Assembly (NCBI RefSeq): GCF_000763905.1
Contig: NZ_JRKN01000007.1
Span: 62,001 to 126,000, forward strand
Direction: 5' to 3'
DNA from: Paracoccus halophilus
GTDB lineage: Bacteria > Pseudomonadota > Alphaproteobacteria > Rhodobacterales > Rhodobacteraceae
DNA: 64,000 bases
Shown one piece after another: positions 4,701 through 26,227 of this stretch (position 1 is its first letter; each line of letters starts with the position of its first letter). Below the pieces are notes generated by a model. It saw only the letters and a program-made list of their open reading frames with translations. It made no database searches and was not told the origin of the DNA. The translations under genes were made by a program, and so were the position numbers.

Positions 4701-6766
4701 ACCCGTACATTGGTCCATTCGGTAAAGCCCTTGCCCCACCATTCGTCATTTTCGGGAATGGTGTGGAACTGCGGCAGGTAAAAGGCGATCACCCGGGCCT
4801 TGGGGTCGGTCAGTTCGGTCTGGATGCGGCGCGGCACGAAATGATCCGCCGTGTCAACCGCGACCATGCCGCCGGGCGAATCCGCGGCTGCGGGCGCGGC
4901 CTCGGACTGGAAGCGGGCCGCCGACTGGCCGGGTTTTGCCGGGGCCGGCGCGGGTTTTTCGAAGGGCGCCACCTGAACCGCCAGCCAGTGCTGGTAAAGT
5001 GCCGTCGAGCCGAACAGCCGGCGGCCGGCGGATGAGGAAAATATCCGGTTCTTCCACTGCACGCGCCGGTTGGTCGGGATCGGCAGCCGGCGCCAGACCC
5101 CCAGGGCGATCCCGGCCGCGATACGGCGCAGAAGCCGGAGGATCCCGCGCAGCGCAGTGCTGAGCGCGCGCATCGGCCGCGTCACCCGCCACGAGGTGCT
5201 GGCATAGACCGCGCGCAGCATGTTCGAGAGATTCTCGATCTCGGCCAGACGGTCCTGAACGCCGCGCGCGTAATGGCCGGCCTCGATCCGTGACGCGTCC
5301 AGAGCCTGTGACAGACGGCCGGCCTCGATCCGTGACGCGTCCAGAGCCTGTGACAGACGGCCGGCCTCGATCCGTGACGCGTCCAGAGCCTGTGACAGCC
5401 GGGCGGCCTCGTCCTGTTTCTGGCGCAATTCCTCCTGGGCCTTCTGCAGCGCGCTTGCCGATTTTTGCGCCCTGTGCTGCAGGTCCTTCAGCCGCGCCCG
5501 GTCCTGTCGGTAAACCTCGCGGTCGCGCTCATAGGCGGTCTGCACTTCGATGCGCGCGGCCTCGGTCTGCGCGCGGGCGTTCTCGGCCCGGCTCAGCCGG
5601 TCGATCGAGGCGCCGAGCTGGCGCTGCTTTTCCTCAAGTTGCGAGCGCAGATCATTGATATAAAGTTCGTTTTTCTTGTTCAGGTCCAAGACGACATCAT
5701 GCAGTTTCCAGATGCCTTCCAGACCATGCGAAAGCTCGGTATTGCGGCGCGCCAATTCGTCGCTGGTCAGCTTGTGCAGGGCGATATCGGCGCTGACACT
5801 GGCCAGTTCATGGCGCGTGTCGCGGATCGCGGGCAGGGTCAGTTCGACCAGCTCGTCGAACCGTTCGGCAATGGCATCCATCTGGGCCATGGCCGTCGCG
5901 TCCTGCGGATCTTTGGCGAATGCCGCGCAGGCGTCAAAGCCGCGCAGCGCCAGCCCGTTCGTGTAGCTTGTCCGCGCCAGATCCTCGGCGGTCCATCTGT
6001 TGTGACGGGCATCCTTGACGATGGCCTTTTTGACATCGGCGGCGATCTTTCCCAGATCATTCGGCCAATTCAGCCCCAGATCCGCGGCCATGCGGCCGAA
6101 GGTGTCGCGCCAGTCATCGAACAGGCTGTCATATGAGGTGAAGCTGCGCTTGCAGCCGCGGCTGTCGCGTTCGGCGTCGATCAGATGGCGCAACCACAGC
6201 ATGATCCCCTCGCGCATGCTGATTCCGTCGCGGGCAAGAAGCGAGCCGGCGACCTCCAGCGGGTTGCGATAGGGAATGACGACCAGCGGCTCGATCCTTT
6301 CGGCCTCCAGCGCGCGCAGGATCGGCGGCAGCAGGCGGCAGCTGCGCGGCTCTTTCAGCACCATCAGCGGCGCGTCGCCCTGTTCCTCGCGGAGAAAACC
6401 GCGCAGGTCCGAAATATAGCGCGCGACCAGATCCTGCGGCGCCGCGCCAAGGTCCAGCCGCGACCATTCGTTCCAGTCGCTGCCCAGATCCTGCAGCAGT
6501 TCGGAATTGCGGTTGTTCAGCCAGACCGGCTCCCAATGCCCGTATTCGTTATCTTTTGTGGCGCCGATCAGATCCGCAGGCAGCCTGGCGCCGGCCAGGC
6601 CGATCAACTGGGTGACGACACTGGTGCCCGAACGGTGCATTCCCAGGACCAGCAGGCATTGACGAACTGCTTGGGCTTTTTTCGCGGCTTTGGCGGGTTT
6701 GTTCGGCAATGTCGTTCTCGCGATCTGTGACGGGTGTTTGCTAATCGCTATGGCCGACTCGCGCAA
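1799..6766 (-). CDS. Giant multidomain glycan enzyme: sulfotransferase, coiled coil, WbsX-like, GT4, GT2
   Basis: The protein has 1655 residues. Residues about 35-330 are a sulfotransferase-family domain with P-loop-like GMHRSGTS at 42-49. Residues about 340-515 are a Glu/Gln/Arg-rich coiled coil that includes three exact copies of a 14-residue unit. After a basic linker, a WbsX-type glycosyltransferase domain starts near 659 (VIAFYLPQFHTIPEND, WWGKGFTEWTNV). A GT-B group 1 (GT4) domain follows from about 1017 (LILGAGYIDHRKGVDLFV, then SREDPYPSVVLEAMA). A GT-A family 2 domain ends the protein from about 1374 (SVIVPSYNYQDYI; metal-binding AEADD near 1462). No signal peptide is present, so it should act at the cytoplasmic face of the membrane. 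It probably builds and modifies a surface polysaccharide together with the downstream sulfotransferase fusion. The acceptor is unknown, and which domains are active cannot be told from sequence alone. Confidence 0.85.
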   Translation of the reverse strand: MRESAIAISKHPSQIARTTLPNKPAKAAKKAQAVRQCLLVLGMHRSGTSVVTQLIGLAGARLPADLIGATKDNEYGHWEPVWLNNRNSELLQDLGSDWNEWSRLDLGAAPQDLVARYISDLRGFLREEQGDAPLMVLKEPRSCRLLPPILRALEAERIEPLVVIPYRNPLEVAGSLLARDGISMREGIMLWLRHLIDAERDSRGCKRSFTSYDSLFDDWRDTFGRMAADLGLNWPNDLGKIAADVKKAIVKDARHNRWTAEDLARTSYTNGLALRGFDACAAFAKDPQDATAMAQMDAIAERFDELVELTLPAIRDTRHELASVSADIALHKLTSDELARRNTELSHGLEGIWKLHDVVLDLNKKNELYINDLRSQLEEKQRQLGASIDRLSRAENARAQTEAARIEVQTAYERDREVYRQDRARLKDLQHRAQKSASALQKAQEELRQKQDEAARLSQALDASRIEAGRLSQALDASRIEAGRLSQALDASRIEAGHYARGVQDRLAEIENLSNMLRAVYASTSWRVTRPMRALSTALRGILRLLRRIAAGIALGVWRRLPIPTNRRVQWKNRIFSSSAGRRLFGSTALYQHWLAVQVAPFEKPAPAPAKPGQSAARFQSEAAPAAADSPGGMVAVDTADHFVPRRIQTELTDPKARVIAFYLPQFHTIPENDEWWGKGFTEWTNVRVTQPMFPGHYQPHEPLDIGYYDLTDIEAQKRQIELAKLYGLGGFCFYWYWFAGKRLLEKPVENWLAHAELDFPFCICWANENWSRRWDGKDAEILIAQDHSPEDDLAFIAALAPYLRDPRYIRIDGRPLVLVYRPSLLPDPAATAGRWREWCRENGVGEIYLAYTQSFELADPKTYDFDAAIEFPPNNASPTVLTDRVEGLDPEFNGIIYDWNSYVDRSRDYPRPDYRLIRSVCPAWDNSARRKKGGAIFLNNTPGEYATWLNNAMTRTLADAPTRDERIIFCNAWNEWAEGAHLEPDTRFGYAWLETTRDALDPRAAPKHVTLIGHDAHPHGAQFLLLNLARAYRQAGLLVKVVLLQGGELVKDYAEVAQVVELPDPATRRDEALRMLRGLRNEHLEVAIANTTVSGSAVPLLQEAGYSPVALVHEMRSVYSQLNLRRQMRDLAEAGVPTIFPARIVRDQFQETLGSALPQAGIRPQGLYLSPAPRNDADRAALRAEFGIATDAPLILGAGYIDHRKGVDLFVRAVAAMLAAGLPAEAIWIGHADRDELPRVQALAKELGVAAHIHLPGRRPDPARFYAASDLFLLTSREDPYPSVVLEAMAASLPVVMFAGVTGAADLADRGLARAVAAENPDEMARAALDLLQGGAERDAMVARASRHIAEDTGFTEYALDLLSFGGRPVPRISVIVPSYNYQDYIRERLESVAAQDMPILEIIVLDDCSTDRSPEIIAEFAAASQAPVRVIRNETNSGNVFRQWQKGLELARGDYIWIAEADDLAAPDFLSTVMRGFEAPGVVLSYCESAQIDEKGNPLAGDYRYYTNAVAPGKWDRNYVNSGRAEIEQALFLKNTILNASAVVMRADALREVFQQHRAEIEGLRFAGDWAVYLNLMARGDIAYSALSKNLHRRHQSSVTISNFNEKQLDEIIRMQGKARDLIGTDAERDRRAAAAITELENQFGLKPTRRRA
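5275..5400 (-). repeat. Three tandem copies of a 42-bp unit inside the coiled-coil coding region
   Basis: The 42-base unit occupies 5275-5316, 5317-5358 and 5359-5400; the copies are identical except for one base near the end of the third. Because 42 is a multiple of three the frame is kept, and each copy encodes LSQALDASRIEAGR within the coiled coil (protein residues about 456-498). Near-perfect identity at the DNA level implies recent duplication and possible copy-number change by slippage. Confidence 0.95.
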
Positions 6767-23490: not shown

Positions 23491-25038
23491 ATGTCCCGAA
23501 AGAATGCCCGTTACGTCATCGTGCCCGACGACAATGTCTTTAACGACAGCATGGAAACATCCAGCTTCCGGCTGTTCCGCGCCATGCATTCCCGGCTGTT
23601 CAGAAAGCCCGGCGCCGCGCTGATGTCCAGCGTGGCCCATGGCGCGGGGACGGGCACGGCGCCGGTGATCCGGCCGCGGCTGCGCGTGATGGAGACCGAG
23701 GCCGGGCGCATCCGGCTGATCGATTCCATCGGCGAGAACGAGGCCTCTCTGGTCAGCATGACCCCGGATCAGGCGCGCGAATTGCAGCGCGCCTATCCCG
23801 GCCTGCGGGTCCGGCGCGAATTGCTGCTCTATCCGCTGCGCTATGGCCAGATGAACATCATCCGCAAACAGGCCAAGCCGGCGGCCTTTCGCTCGGCCAA
23901 GGAACTGTCGCTGCGCTGCGTGGACGCGGTCACCGGCAAGCCGGTTGCCGGGGCCTCGGTCGTGGTGGTGCTGGACAGCCGGCGCGGCTTTGGCATCTCG
24001 GATGTCGAGACCGACAATGACGGAGGTTTCAGCACGCCGTTGCCGGCGGGACAGAAACGGATCGACGCGGTGATCTGCCAGCCTCTGGCCGGCTACTGGC
24101 CGGCCGGGGCCGAGGCGATCCCGGTCGAGGACGAGGGACCGACCGAGGTGAACCTGTCGCTGGTCCCGATCGCCGGGGATTTTCAGGACGGGCTGGACCG
24201 GATGCTGGCCCCGGCGCAGCCTGCCGACGGGCAGGGGGTCAGGGTCGCGATCATCGATACCGGCGTCGATCCCGCCGCCGGCTTGAACCTGGGACGCGGG
24301 CTGAACACCACCGGGACCGAGCCCGCCGATGAATGGTTCGACAATGGCGCCGGGCATGGCACCCATGTCGCGGGCATCGTCGCCCGGATCGCGCCGGCGG
24401 TGACGCTGCATTCCTATCGCGTTTTCGAGGCCGGGCAGGACGGCGCCGCCGAATTCGCCATCGCCCGCGCCATCCGCCAGGCGATCGAGGATGGCTGCGA
24501 CATCATCAACATGAGCCTGGGCCAGGCCTCCGAGCCGGTGGCGATTTCGCGCGAGGTGCGGCGGGCGCGGGCGATGGGCGTGGTGTGCATCGCGGCCACT
24601 GGAAACGACTATATGGCGCGCGTTTCGTATCCGGCGCGGTCGGGCGTGGTGGTGGCCGTCTCGGCCGGCGGCGTGCTGGACACATGGCCCGAGGGCGCGA
24701 TCACCGCGCGCAACATCGCCGAGGATCCGGCGCCTGTCGGGGATAGCTTTTTCGCCAGGTTCAGCAATATCGGGCCCGAAGTGGACTTTATCGGACCCGG
24801 CGTTGGTATTATATCTTGGGTCAGCAAGGACTCGAAAGGGGTGATGGATGGCACCTCGATGGCCTGTCCGGCCGTGGCCGGGCTTGTTTCGCGGCTGCTG
24901 TCCCGAAATCCCGATATCCTGTCGGCCGAGCGGAACCAGCAGCGCTCGGACGACATTATCAAGATGGCGAATAGCCATGCTGTTCCGATCGGCTTCGGCG
25001 CGGAATACGAAGGCGCCGGGCTGATCGATCAAGGGTGA
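23491..25038 (+). CDS. Subtilisin-like serine protease (S8) with propeptide-like and Ig-like N-terminal domains, predicted cytoplasmic
   Basis: 515 residues. ATG at 23491 is chosen because AAGGAG lies eight bases upstream; a GTG at 23485 would be too close. No signal peptide or membrane helix is present. Residues about 60-118 look like an I9-type propeptide (strand, helix SMTPDQARELQRAYPGL, strand VRRELLLYPL). Residues about 138-190 look like a carboxypeptidase-regulatory/Ig-like module (GKPVAGASVVVV, VETDNDGGFSTPLPAG). The catalytic domain follows with Asp256 (VAIIDTGVD), His289 (GHGTHVAG), oxyanion Asn372 (AATGND) and Ser456 (DGTSMACP). All three triad residues are intact. It directly precedes the small protein and nuclease genes and is probably co-transcribed with them. 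Target unknown; a role in activating or releasing the nuclease is inference. Confidence 0.9.
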   Translation: MSRKNARYVIVPDDNVFNDSMETSSFRLFRAMHSRLFRKPGAALMSSVAHGAGTGTAPVIRPRLRVMETEAGRIRLIDSIGENEASLVSMTPDQARELQRAYPGLRVRRELLLYPLRYGQMNIIRKQAKPAAFRSAKELSLRCVDAVTGKPVAGASVVVVLDSRRGFGISDVETDNDGGFSTPLPAGQKRIDAVICQPLAGYWPAGAEAIPVEDEGPTEVNLSLVPIAGDFQDGLDRMLAPAQPADGQGVRVAIIDTGVDPAAGLNLGRGLNTTGTEPADEWFDNGAGHGTHVAGIVARIAPAVTLHSYRVFEAGQDGAAEFAIARAIRQAIEDGCDIINMSLGQASEPVAISREVRRARAMGVVCIAATGNDYMARVSYPARSGVVVAVSAGGVLDTWPEGAITARNIAEDPAPVGDSFFARFSNIGPEVDFIGPGVGIISWVSKDSKGVMDGTSMACPAVAGLVSRLLSRNPDILSAERNQQRSDDIIKMANSHAVPIGFGAEYEGAGLIDQG

Positions 25039-25043
25039 TGGGA

Positions 25044-25298
25044 ATGAAAACGCAAAGCAAATCGACCGAGAACTGCATATTGGTCTATTCCGACGACCGC
25101 GATCCCAGCCGCTCGGAAACGGCCGAATTGCTGGACCATCTGAAGCCGCTTCCCGCCGAAGAGGTCGTGCCCGGCACGATCCGGGTCAAGGGCAGTGTCA
25201 AAGAGGTGCGCGAGTGCATCGGCGATCTTGCCGACTGGCAGGTCTCGAAGGAAAAGATCTTCAAGCTCAACCCGCCGCACAAGGCGCAGCTGCGCTGA
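25044..25298 (+). CDS. 84-residue protein, possible I9-type inhibitor/propeptide acting in trans
   Basis: Start at ATG 25044 (MKTQSKS) with AAGGG eight bases upstream; ATG 25038 and GTG 25035 in the same frame overlap the protease stop. No signal peptide. Predicted order by eye is strand (CILVYSDD), helix (SRSETAELLDHLKP), strand (GTIRVKGS), helix (VKEVRECIGDLAD), strand (WQVSKEKIFKLN). This is the topology of subtilisin propeptide / I9 inhibitors, and the helix-strand end resembles that of such propeptides. No sequence family was recognised with certainty. Sitting between a subtilase and a nuclease, it may keep the protease inactive in trans or tether the nuclease; both are inference. Confidence 0.65.
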   Translation: MKTQSKSTENCILVYSDDRDPSRSETAELLDHLKPLPAEEVVPGTIRVKGSVKEVRECIGDLADWQVSKEKIFKLNPPHKAQLR

Positions 25299-25342
25299 GG
25301 CGGCGCGGCTTCGGCCCGGCCGACACGCCGCAGGCCCTGCGG

Positions 25343-26227
25343 GTGACCGAGGCGCTGCGGCCGCTGCAGGATTATGACGACCGCCGGGGCTATGATCCCG
25401 GCTTTGTCCTGCCCGACACCCCCTTGCCCCTGCCGGGAGCGGGCCGTTGGGCCGATGATCTGGCGCCGCTGACGCCCGAGGCACGCCGCCCGGGCCAGGA
25501 TGTCAGCGAATTGCGCTATACGCATTTCTCGGTCCGGATGTCGCAGTCGCGGGGCCTGCCGCTGTTCAGCGCCTGCAATATCGACGGCGCGCAATCGGAT
25601 CGCGAGGTGCCGCGCGATGACACATGGCGGCGCGATCCGCGGATCGATGCCCGTTTCCAGAACCTGCGCGAAGGCTATGGCGACGAGCGTCGGGGCCTGT
25701 TCAGCCGCGGCCACATGACCCGGCGCGAGGATCCCAACTGGGGCGATGCCGATACCGCGCGGCGCGCCAATGCCGATACGTTCCACATCACCAATGTCGC
25801 GCCGCAGCGTCAGGGCTTCAACGGCGGCATCTGGCTGCAGCTGGAAGATTACGTCATCGACAATGCCGACCGCGCCAATCTGAAGGTGAGCGTGATCACC
25901 GGCCCGTTCCTGACCCCCGAGGACCCGGTTTACTACAACCGCCCGATCCCGGTGGCCTTCTGGAAAATCCTGGCATTCGTCCATGCCGGCACGGGCGAGC
26001 TGACGACCATCGGCTACCGCCGCTCGCAGATGGACTACCTGCCGCGCCCCTCGGGCGGGCGCTTCGTCTTTGGCGATTTTCAGGACAGTCAGGTGCCGAT
26101 CAGCGCCATCGCGCAGGAAAGCGGGCTGGACCTGACACCCTATGCCGATCTGGACGTGATGGCCGCGGCCGCCCCGGAAATGGAGATCAGGCTCAGCAGC
26201 GTTTCGGATTTCTATCTGCGGCGCTGA
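25343..26227 (+). CDS. DNA/RNA non-specific endonuclease (NUC family), predicted cytoplasmic
   Basis: 294 residues if translation begins at GTG 25343. The frame is open further upstream, and a coupled CTG at 25295 overlapping the previous stop is also possible, so the exact start is uncertain. The beta-beta-alpha-metal nuclease core is intact: general-base His124 in SRGHMTRRED, then Asn151 in HITNVAPQRQGFN and the magnesium-ligand Asn160, followed by WLQLEDYV and ITGPFL. The unusual N-terminal 60 residues (DYDDRRGYDPGFVLPDT) precede the family's LRYTHFSVRMS strand. Unlike most bacterial NucA-type nucleases there is no secretion signal. Such an enzyme loose in the cytoplasm would destroy host nucleic acid, so it must be restrained. 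It is the last gene of the protease-small protein-nuclease cassette. Confidence 0.88.
   Translation: MTEALRPLQDYDDRRGYDPGFVLPDTPLPLPGAGRWADDLAPLTPEARRPGQDVSELRYTHFSVRMSQSRGLPLFSACNIDGAQSDREVPRDDTWRRDPRIDARFQNLREGYGDERRGLFSRGHMTRREDPNWGDADTARRANADTFHITNVAPQRQGFNGGIWLQLEDYVIDNADRANLKVSVITGPFLTPEDPVYYNRPIPVAFWKILAFVHAGTGELTTIGYRRSQMDYLPRPSGGRFVFGDFQDSQVPISAIAQESGLDLTPYADLDVMAAAAPEMEIRLSSVSDFYLRR

Follow-up and report, generated by a model that had tools for sequence, protein, structure and literature searches.

The window analysed here is a stretch of 64,000 nucleotides from contig NZ_JRKN01000007.1 of Paracoccus halophilus, which carries at positions 23491-26227 a cassette of three plus-strand genes in the order S8 subtilase, 84-residue protein and nuclease of the Endonuclease_NS family (NUC; Table 1). 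An earlier reading made from the letters alone (the sequence-only reading) had proposed these genes as a possible protease-gated suicide or defence system. All three genes are present and the cassette is confirmed as real, with two corrections, one concerning the start of NUC and the other a related NucA-peptidase system that had already been predicted; the interpretation is partly supported. The catalytic motifs are intact as described, namely the S8 triad and, in NUC, SRGHM at residue 121 and NVAPQ...FN with NVAPQ at residue 151. Purifying selection acts on each of the three genes, the median pairwise ratio of nonsynonymous to synonymous substitution rates (dN/dS) being 0.24 for S8 (153 pairs), 0.29 for the small gene (150 of 153 pairs) and 0.23 for NUC (66 pairs).

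Table 1. Features of the cassette, in positions of the window.
Feature	Position	Strand	Details
S8 subtilase, 515 residues	23491..25038	+	ATG 23491, stop 25036-25038; Pfam Peptidase_S8, E=1.7e-29
S8 N-terminal propeptide-like segment, residues 1-118	23491..23844	+	Order of elements in the AlphaFold2 (AF2) model; L-V-x-M-T-P conserved in alignments
Beta-sandwich (CarboxypepD_reg-like / Ig-like) module, residues 142-224	23914..24162	+	Pfam CarboxypepD_reg; seven model strands
S8 catalytic domain, residues 247-481	24229..24933	+	Triad Asp256, His289, Ser456
84-residue partner protein	25044..25298	+	Stop 25296-25298; adjoins S8 in 18/18 Paracoccus loci
Junction of small-gene stop and NUC start	25296..25300	+	TGAGG in the window; TGATG in 10/12 Paracoccus NUC loci
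NUC (Endonuclease_NS), 294 residues from GTG 25343	25343..26227	+	E=2e-40; frame open from further upstream

Protease, nuclease and small partner protein

The protease belongs to Peptidase S8 by both its Asp/His/Ser triad and its subtilisin fold: the catalytic domain of the AF2 model resembles subtilisins (Z 24.9 to 1mpt, root-mean-square deviation (rmsd) 2.9, 218 residues aligned), the full-length model having a mean predicted local distance difference test (pLDDT) score of 56 and being poor outside part of the catalytic core. In the N-terminal segment the model places strands (E) and helices (H) in the order E6-12, H25-34, E72-79, E86-90, H92-101, E105-109, mostly at pLDDT below 60; the claim that the protease has a propeptide-like segment of its own thus agrees, at low confidence, with an E-H-E-E-H-E order as in the small protein. 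The CarboxypepD_reg match (E=2.2e-6, 28.4 bits) lies under the curated Pfam cut-off of 32.3. A PADLOC 'subtilase' match of the window S8 covers the generic catalytic domain only and was not used.

A Kyte-Doolittle scan revealed no strongly hydrophobic N-terminus or segment in any of the three proteins, in line with the absence of signal peptides pointed out earlier. In favour of an exported weapon, with protease and nuclease leaving the cell by a route needing no signal peptide, S8 subtilases and NUC nucleases are often secreted families and the scan was confined to hydrophobic segments. Such export is highly improbable, however, since the N-termini are not hydrophobic and the 25 of 73 Pfam families listed for the flanks of the cassette loci include none specific to secretion.

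The closest solved relatives of NUC are EXOG (E=3.8e-6) and then NucA-type and EndoG nucleases. The three genes had been described as overlapping or abutting. This holds for S8 and the small gene, where an alternative start, ATG 25038, gives a protein of 86 residues and overlaps the S8 stop; between the small gene and NUC the frame is continuous, yet an ATG is lacking at this point in the window. The small-gene stop and the NUC ATG overlap as TGATG in 10 of the 12 Paracoccus loci with a close NUC gene, and in one (L253) NUC has a separate ATG. Because the junction in the window reads TGAGG, its NUC must start elsewhere or is poorly translated; the frame runs on from the end of the small gene, the first usual start beyond it being GTG 25343. 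This frame is open and constrained, with dN/dS of 0.19-0.35 against the 11 other NUC genes.

The 84-residue protein has no match in Pfam, NCBIfam or PADLOC at E<=1. Its structure is predicted by AF2 (7 sequences) as b-a-b-b-a-b (E-H-E-E-H-E), with a mean pLDDT of 73 and about 80 in the core, and the propeptide-like order of elements proposed for it is thereby upheld. The predicted order of elements is that of POIA1, a stand-alone member of Inhibitor I9 (Pfam PF05922); yeast PBI2 is another stand-alone I9 inhibitor. Unlike these inhibitors, the small protein has no sequence match to the family, and its structural scores do not rise above those of unrelated ferredoxin-like folds. Sequence proof of I9 membership was sought with 27 small proteins in Pfam and PDB, and nothing of that kind emerged: none of the 27 matched the I9 model in Pfam at E<=10 (six families matched, none of them I9), and the PDB search returned three sequences at E<=10, none an I9 protein. 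Among structures, propeptides and POIA1 were matched at Z 6.1 (3whi), 6.0 (1itp), 5.9 (3cnq_P) and 5.8 (8gkp), all of them tied with many other ferredoxin-like proteins; the POIA1 match has rmsd 3.8 over 67 aligned residues. Foldseek gave no match at E<=0.001 and pointed to ferredoxin-like folds in general, with ORF2, the chaperone of the Aeromonas sobria subtilase ASP (3wqb_B), as a weak match at rank 14 (E=0.15). The lack of propeptide prominence in the structural search is not evidence against I9. The I9-like character claimed for the protein therefore finds support in fold order and none in sequence, and since no I9 sequence relation was found, 'propeptide-like' is used here as an argument from fold order and context, not as a statement of membership.

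Distribution and mobility of the cassette

Relatives of the window S8 (E<=1e-40) are present in 18 of 125 Paracoccus genomes, that of P. halophilus included, and the small protein was found in the same 18 with a profile built partly from many of those loci. The small gene lies directly downstream of S8 in all 18 loci and is followed by NUC in 12, the other six having the pair without NUC; this neighbourhood is not due to chance, and the conserved co-occurrence looked for after the sequence-only reading does exist. Close NUC copies (about 70-80% identical) occur in 12 of the 125 genomes and all sit directly downstream of the pair, while 11 more genomes have only weaker matches (E 1e-53 to 1e-11). 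In wider samples S8 is rare, with 4 of 385 genomes of the class (E<=1e-50) and 6 of 292 of the order (E<=1e-40); in 248 genomes of the family a single small-protein query, which would miss diverged copies, had no match beyond the window. The small protein has no match in phages, and NUC matches there are limited to three records at 23-24%. Two scans of viral contigs gave remote S8 matches, and a third gave none that was confirmed.

The cassette moves between sites. Its DNA in the window matches all 17 other Paracoccus loci (over S8 and the small gene only in the six lacking NUC), whereas the 6-kb upstream flank matches none of them and the downstream flank shares only a TonB-receptor gene with two, where some 2 kb separate it from the pair. 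Grouped by their flanks, the 18 loci represent 8 genomic contexts if one shared flank protein is enough to join loci, or 11 if two are required; as some of them share flanks, not every locus represents a separate move.

It is also worth mentioning that five Paracoccus loci have in common a flank protein encoded convergently with NUC (L238:9023-10654, L239:3991-5619, L240:9092-10744, L242:4573-6225, L243:8905-10557); five flank proteins match AidB_N, most likely these, and the five loci are among those that share a site by descent. Two S8 genes are altered with the small gene kept: that of G720 (L254:7577-8929), one of the 18, has an internal gap, and the second copy in G254 (L261, contig C456) is split into two frames.

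The S8-small pair is also found in plasmid relatives and in the genomes G599, G254 and G936, and it reaches beyond Paracoccus. When a genome collection was scanned with the N-terminal regions of S8 proteins from rhizobia and Variovorax (the Variovorax strain being also a query row), six loci emerged, two from Rhizobium and the others from a member of the Hyphomonadaceae, one of the Hyphomicrobiaceae, Variovorax and a member of the Planctomycetaceae. In all six the small gene, detected with a profile made without those loci, is located directly downstream of S8, and NUC is absent from all six stretches. Counting each locus once, 31 S8-small loci could be assessed: the 18 from Paracoccus, L007-L011, L027, L189-L194 and L265. 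Five loci were not counted: L004 and L005 duplicate a counted Paracoccus locus in species or plasmid, L006 is from the same strain as L193, and L025 and L261 are only short stretches of contig. For L010 and L265 the small gene was accepted on a weak profile match (E 0.003 each) plus position. Small-protein matches in G592 and G456 were dropped as likely chance, one being in a long other frame and one with a stop, and neither stretch has an S8 match. The annotations of the Variovorax WDL1 (L006:6307-6570) and Cupriavidus EM10 (L010:6253-6534) plasmids omit the small gene or give it in shortened form.

A nuclease lies directly downstream of the pair in 15 of the 31 loci, in three architectures: NUC alone in the 12 Paracoccus loci, a trypsin-NUC fusion in an Agrobacterium Ti plasmid and Rhizobium CIAT894 (L007, L009), and a trypsin-Endonuclease I fusion in G936 (L265:5615-9634), which belongs to another genus of the same family as Paracoccus. 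An HNH_2 protein in Variovorax (L193) was not counted, as other genes lie in the roughly 1.9 kb that separate it from the small gene. The Ti plasmid stretch (L007:74-4759) also has a CHAT protein of 1157 residues and a second S8 protease, both divergent, beside its S8-small-trypsin-NUC genes. With 16 of the 31 loci having no NUC next door, the pair does not need a nuclease of the window type. Since the pair recurs while the downstream nuclease differs or is absent, the small protein goes with the protease; of the two companions suggested for it earlier, protease or nuclease, only the protease is retained, on the strength of the 18 Paracoccus loci, six of them without NUC, and the six scan loci.

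Phylogeny of the nuclease

A tree was built from 33 of 40 NUC domain rows after exclusion of seven duplicates or fragments (L226, L233-L237, L255). The Paracoccus cassette nucleases group together (98/98), and their sister (100/99) is the NUC of Rhizobium leguminosarum GLR17, encoded beside CHAT and SIR2/pYEATS proteins on a plasmid without the pair (L012:1456-6918). Among plasmid relatives of the window NUC this one is the closest (55.9%), and there is no room for a small gene ahead of it. The trypsin-NUC proteins of the rhizobial S8-small loci group (100/100) with trypsin-NUC proteins that have EAD5-trypsin neighbours instead. The S8-small label needs two changes on this tree, and a single change suffices in none of 200 bootstrap trees. 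The history of the association thus comprises either two gains or one gain followed by a loss. The GLR17 NUC likely starts at ATG 5987, upstream of the annotated start at 6151. Two stretches with trypsin-NUC fusions next to EAD5-trypsin proteins, L013:3437-6858 and L014:4978-9642, fit the predicted NucA-peptidase conflict system discussed below.

These relationships bear on two other explanations of the trio. The pair and the nuclease might be independent within one cassette, the protease serving protein turnover and the nuclease acting alone, for example on incoming DNA, as the six Paracoccus loci without NUC and the pairless GLR17 plasmid would allow; this is unlikely, since all 12 close Paracoccus copies of NUC directly follow the pair, with the stop/start overlap in 10, and the association has the history just described and recurs with Endonuclease I. 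The tightly packed order protease-small-nuclease could likewise suggest that the small protein is an antitoxin binding the nuclease until the protease removes it. Against this, the confident small genes found adjoin an S8, also in the 16 loci that lack an adjacent NUC, and the GLR17 nuclease has no space for such a gene before it, making an antitoxin role very doubtful indeed.

Known systems and the proposed role of the cassette

The S8-small-NUC trio is not described in the literature searched, most subscription papers being outside that search, which agrees with the sequence-only reading, where no system of this composition was known; a related NucA-trypsin system with some S8 domains had, however, been predicted in 2020. 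This NucA-peptidase conflict system ('System 3', Kaur et al. 2020, eLife, PMC7159879; the prediction is also cited in PMC8195603) is mostly alphaproteobacterial with a core of NucA and trypsin; S8 domains flank NucA in some polypeptides, a proteolytic cascade is proposed, and the role in conflict with invaders is a prediction. The window nuclease is of the same Endonuclease_NS type, and its relatives carry fused trypsin domains, as do the S8-small loci L007 and L009. The window trio itself has Peptidase_S8 only, with no trypsin domain fused or in the operon; S8 is encoded there by a gene of its own, with propeptide-like and Ig-like modules in the protein, and it comes with an 84-residue partner that the available part of PMC7159879 does not mention. 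Because trypsin is lacking, the trio is regarded as a variant of System 3, not a member.

Protease-gated nucleases have been shown experimentally for HamMAB, an Avs system (HamM/Avs1) and canu (CanABC) (Tuck et al. 2025, Science, PMC12799240). In canu a protease with an Ig-like fold forms a complex with the product of the middle gene, and it activates the nuclease. In gene content the window shows the same three-part logic of protease, middle gene and nuclease; unlike these systems, with their caspase or trypsin and a nuclease of the MBL fold with gating loops, it has a subtilase and an Endonuclease_NS nuclease, which is not of the MBL fold. A close counterpart of the pair is the Aeromonas sobria subtilase ASP, which has the chaperone/inhibitor gene ORF2 just downstream, the C-terminus of the ORF2 product lying at the active site (PMC5638518; PDB 3wqb). 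In both cases the small partner gene directly follows the subtilase, as in the 18 Paracoccus and six scan loci; ASP is secreted and propeptide-deficient, whereas the window S8 shows no signal peptide, carries a propeptide-like segment and is linked to a nuclease.

The explanation favoured here, to which we give about an even chance, is a movable three-gene effector cassette in which a partner-controlled subtilase switches on a nuclease. Among the protease-nuclease conflict systems represented by NucA-trypsin and canu, it would be the variant built on a subtilase and its inhibitor. What the sequences show is the gene content, the intact motifs, an operon-like packing, the consistent pairing of S8 with the small gene, the repeated pairing with nucleases, the several contexts and the purifying selection; inhibition, proteolytic control of the nuclease, the trigger and defence are inferred. 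The propeptide-like segment at the N-terminus of the cytoplasmic subtilase would control its folding and activity, and the 84-residue partner would be its dedicated chaperone/inhibitor in trans, by analogy with ORF2 and ASP. Under a stress such as phage infection the partner might be removed or outcompeted, letting the subtilase act; its proteolysis may then release or switch on the EndoG/EXOG-type nuclease, and nucleic acid in the cell would be destroyed. Since the small gene adjoins that of the protease whether or not a nuclease is present, its product most likely both folds and restrains the protease, in the manner of ORF2 with ASP. The likeliest role of the protease is control of the nuclease, with destruction of nucleic acid in an infected or damaged cell as the result, because the pair is joined to three nuclease architectures and because of the precedents in PMC12799240. 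The CHAT plus SIR2/pYEATS or EAD5-trypsin partners of the relatives of the window NUC speak for the same explanation. In a broader version, put forward tentatively, the S8-small pair may be a protease switch that is gated by an inhibitor, can be carried from system to system and has been coupled to more than one killing nuclease (NUC, trypsin-NUC, trypsin-Endonuclease I). It would be the bacterial counterpart of an EndoG-like or CAD-like nuclease under the control of a caspase and its inhibitor.

A different use of the pair is suggested by tyrosinase genes (Pfam Tyrosinase and DUF7868) adjoining it in three Rhizobium loci, upstream in L189 (6506-8029) and downstream in L190 (10808-12397) and L011 (6843-7391, a short copy). 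Tyrosinases are often proenzymes, and with such neighbours the pair may mature proenzymes more generally: S8 would be a general protease, with its own foldase/inhibitor, maturing whichever proenzyme is adjacent, tyrosinase or nuclease, with no part in immunity. The flanks of the cassette loci fit this as well. A PADLOC scan (E<=1e-10) of 103 of 137 predicted flank proteins, the three nearest per side, marked at most four (mad3 in two, TniQ in one, HTH_VI in one) and gave no sign of a defence island, so no support emerged there for the enrichment near known defence genes for which the sequence-only reading had asked, and a defence-island setting was set aside. The commonest flank families, among the 25 of 73 listed, are ordinary metabolic and transport genes. 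General maturation is nevertheless rather unlikely: nucleases of three architectures adjoin the pair in 15 of 31 loci, the relatives of NUC belong to predicted conflict systems (PMC7159879), and a broad intracellular nuclease would be an odd metabolic enzyme.

Returning to the partner-controlled subtilase that switches on a nuclease, the tyrosinase neighbours and the sparse PADLOC matches also weigh against this proposal, as do several other observations. The trio has no sensor gene, and the window NUC has lost the ATG at the small-gene stop. Of the S8-small loci, 16 of 31 have no adjacent NUC, other nuclease families having been checked only in part there, and the S8 relatives of G420, G876 and G947 are without the small gene. 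Besides having no sequence match to any I9 family, the small protein is matched by unrelated ferredoxin-like folds at up to Z 7.5, above the propeptides (5.8-6.1), and its profile is not significantly similar to the N-terminal segment of S8 itself (hhalign probability 2%, P 0.025, 25 columns; P 0.51 for the beta-module as control). Lastly, some of the 18 Paracoccus loci share their flanks by descent.

That proteases gate nucleases in bacterial immunity has been proven only recently, with trypsin and caspase as the proteases (PMC12799240). If the proposal is true, the cassette would add subtilases and a stand-alone propeptide-like inhibitor to this theme, with a predicted order of control in which the partner restrains the protease and the protease controls the nuclease. 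Should the pair be a portable switch, it would bring a new protease class, the subtilases, together with a new layer of dedicated propeptide-like inhibition in trans, into bacterial immunity. In either case a candidate function would be at hand for the scattered pairs of an S8 protease and a hypothetical small protein, from Paracoccus to a planctomycete.

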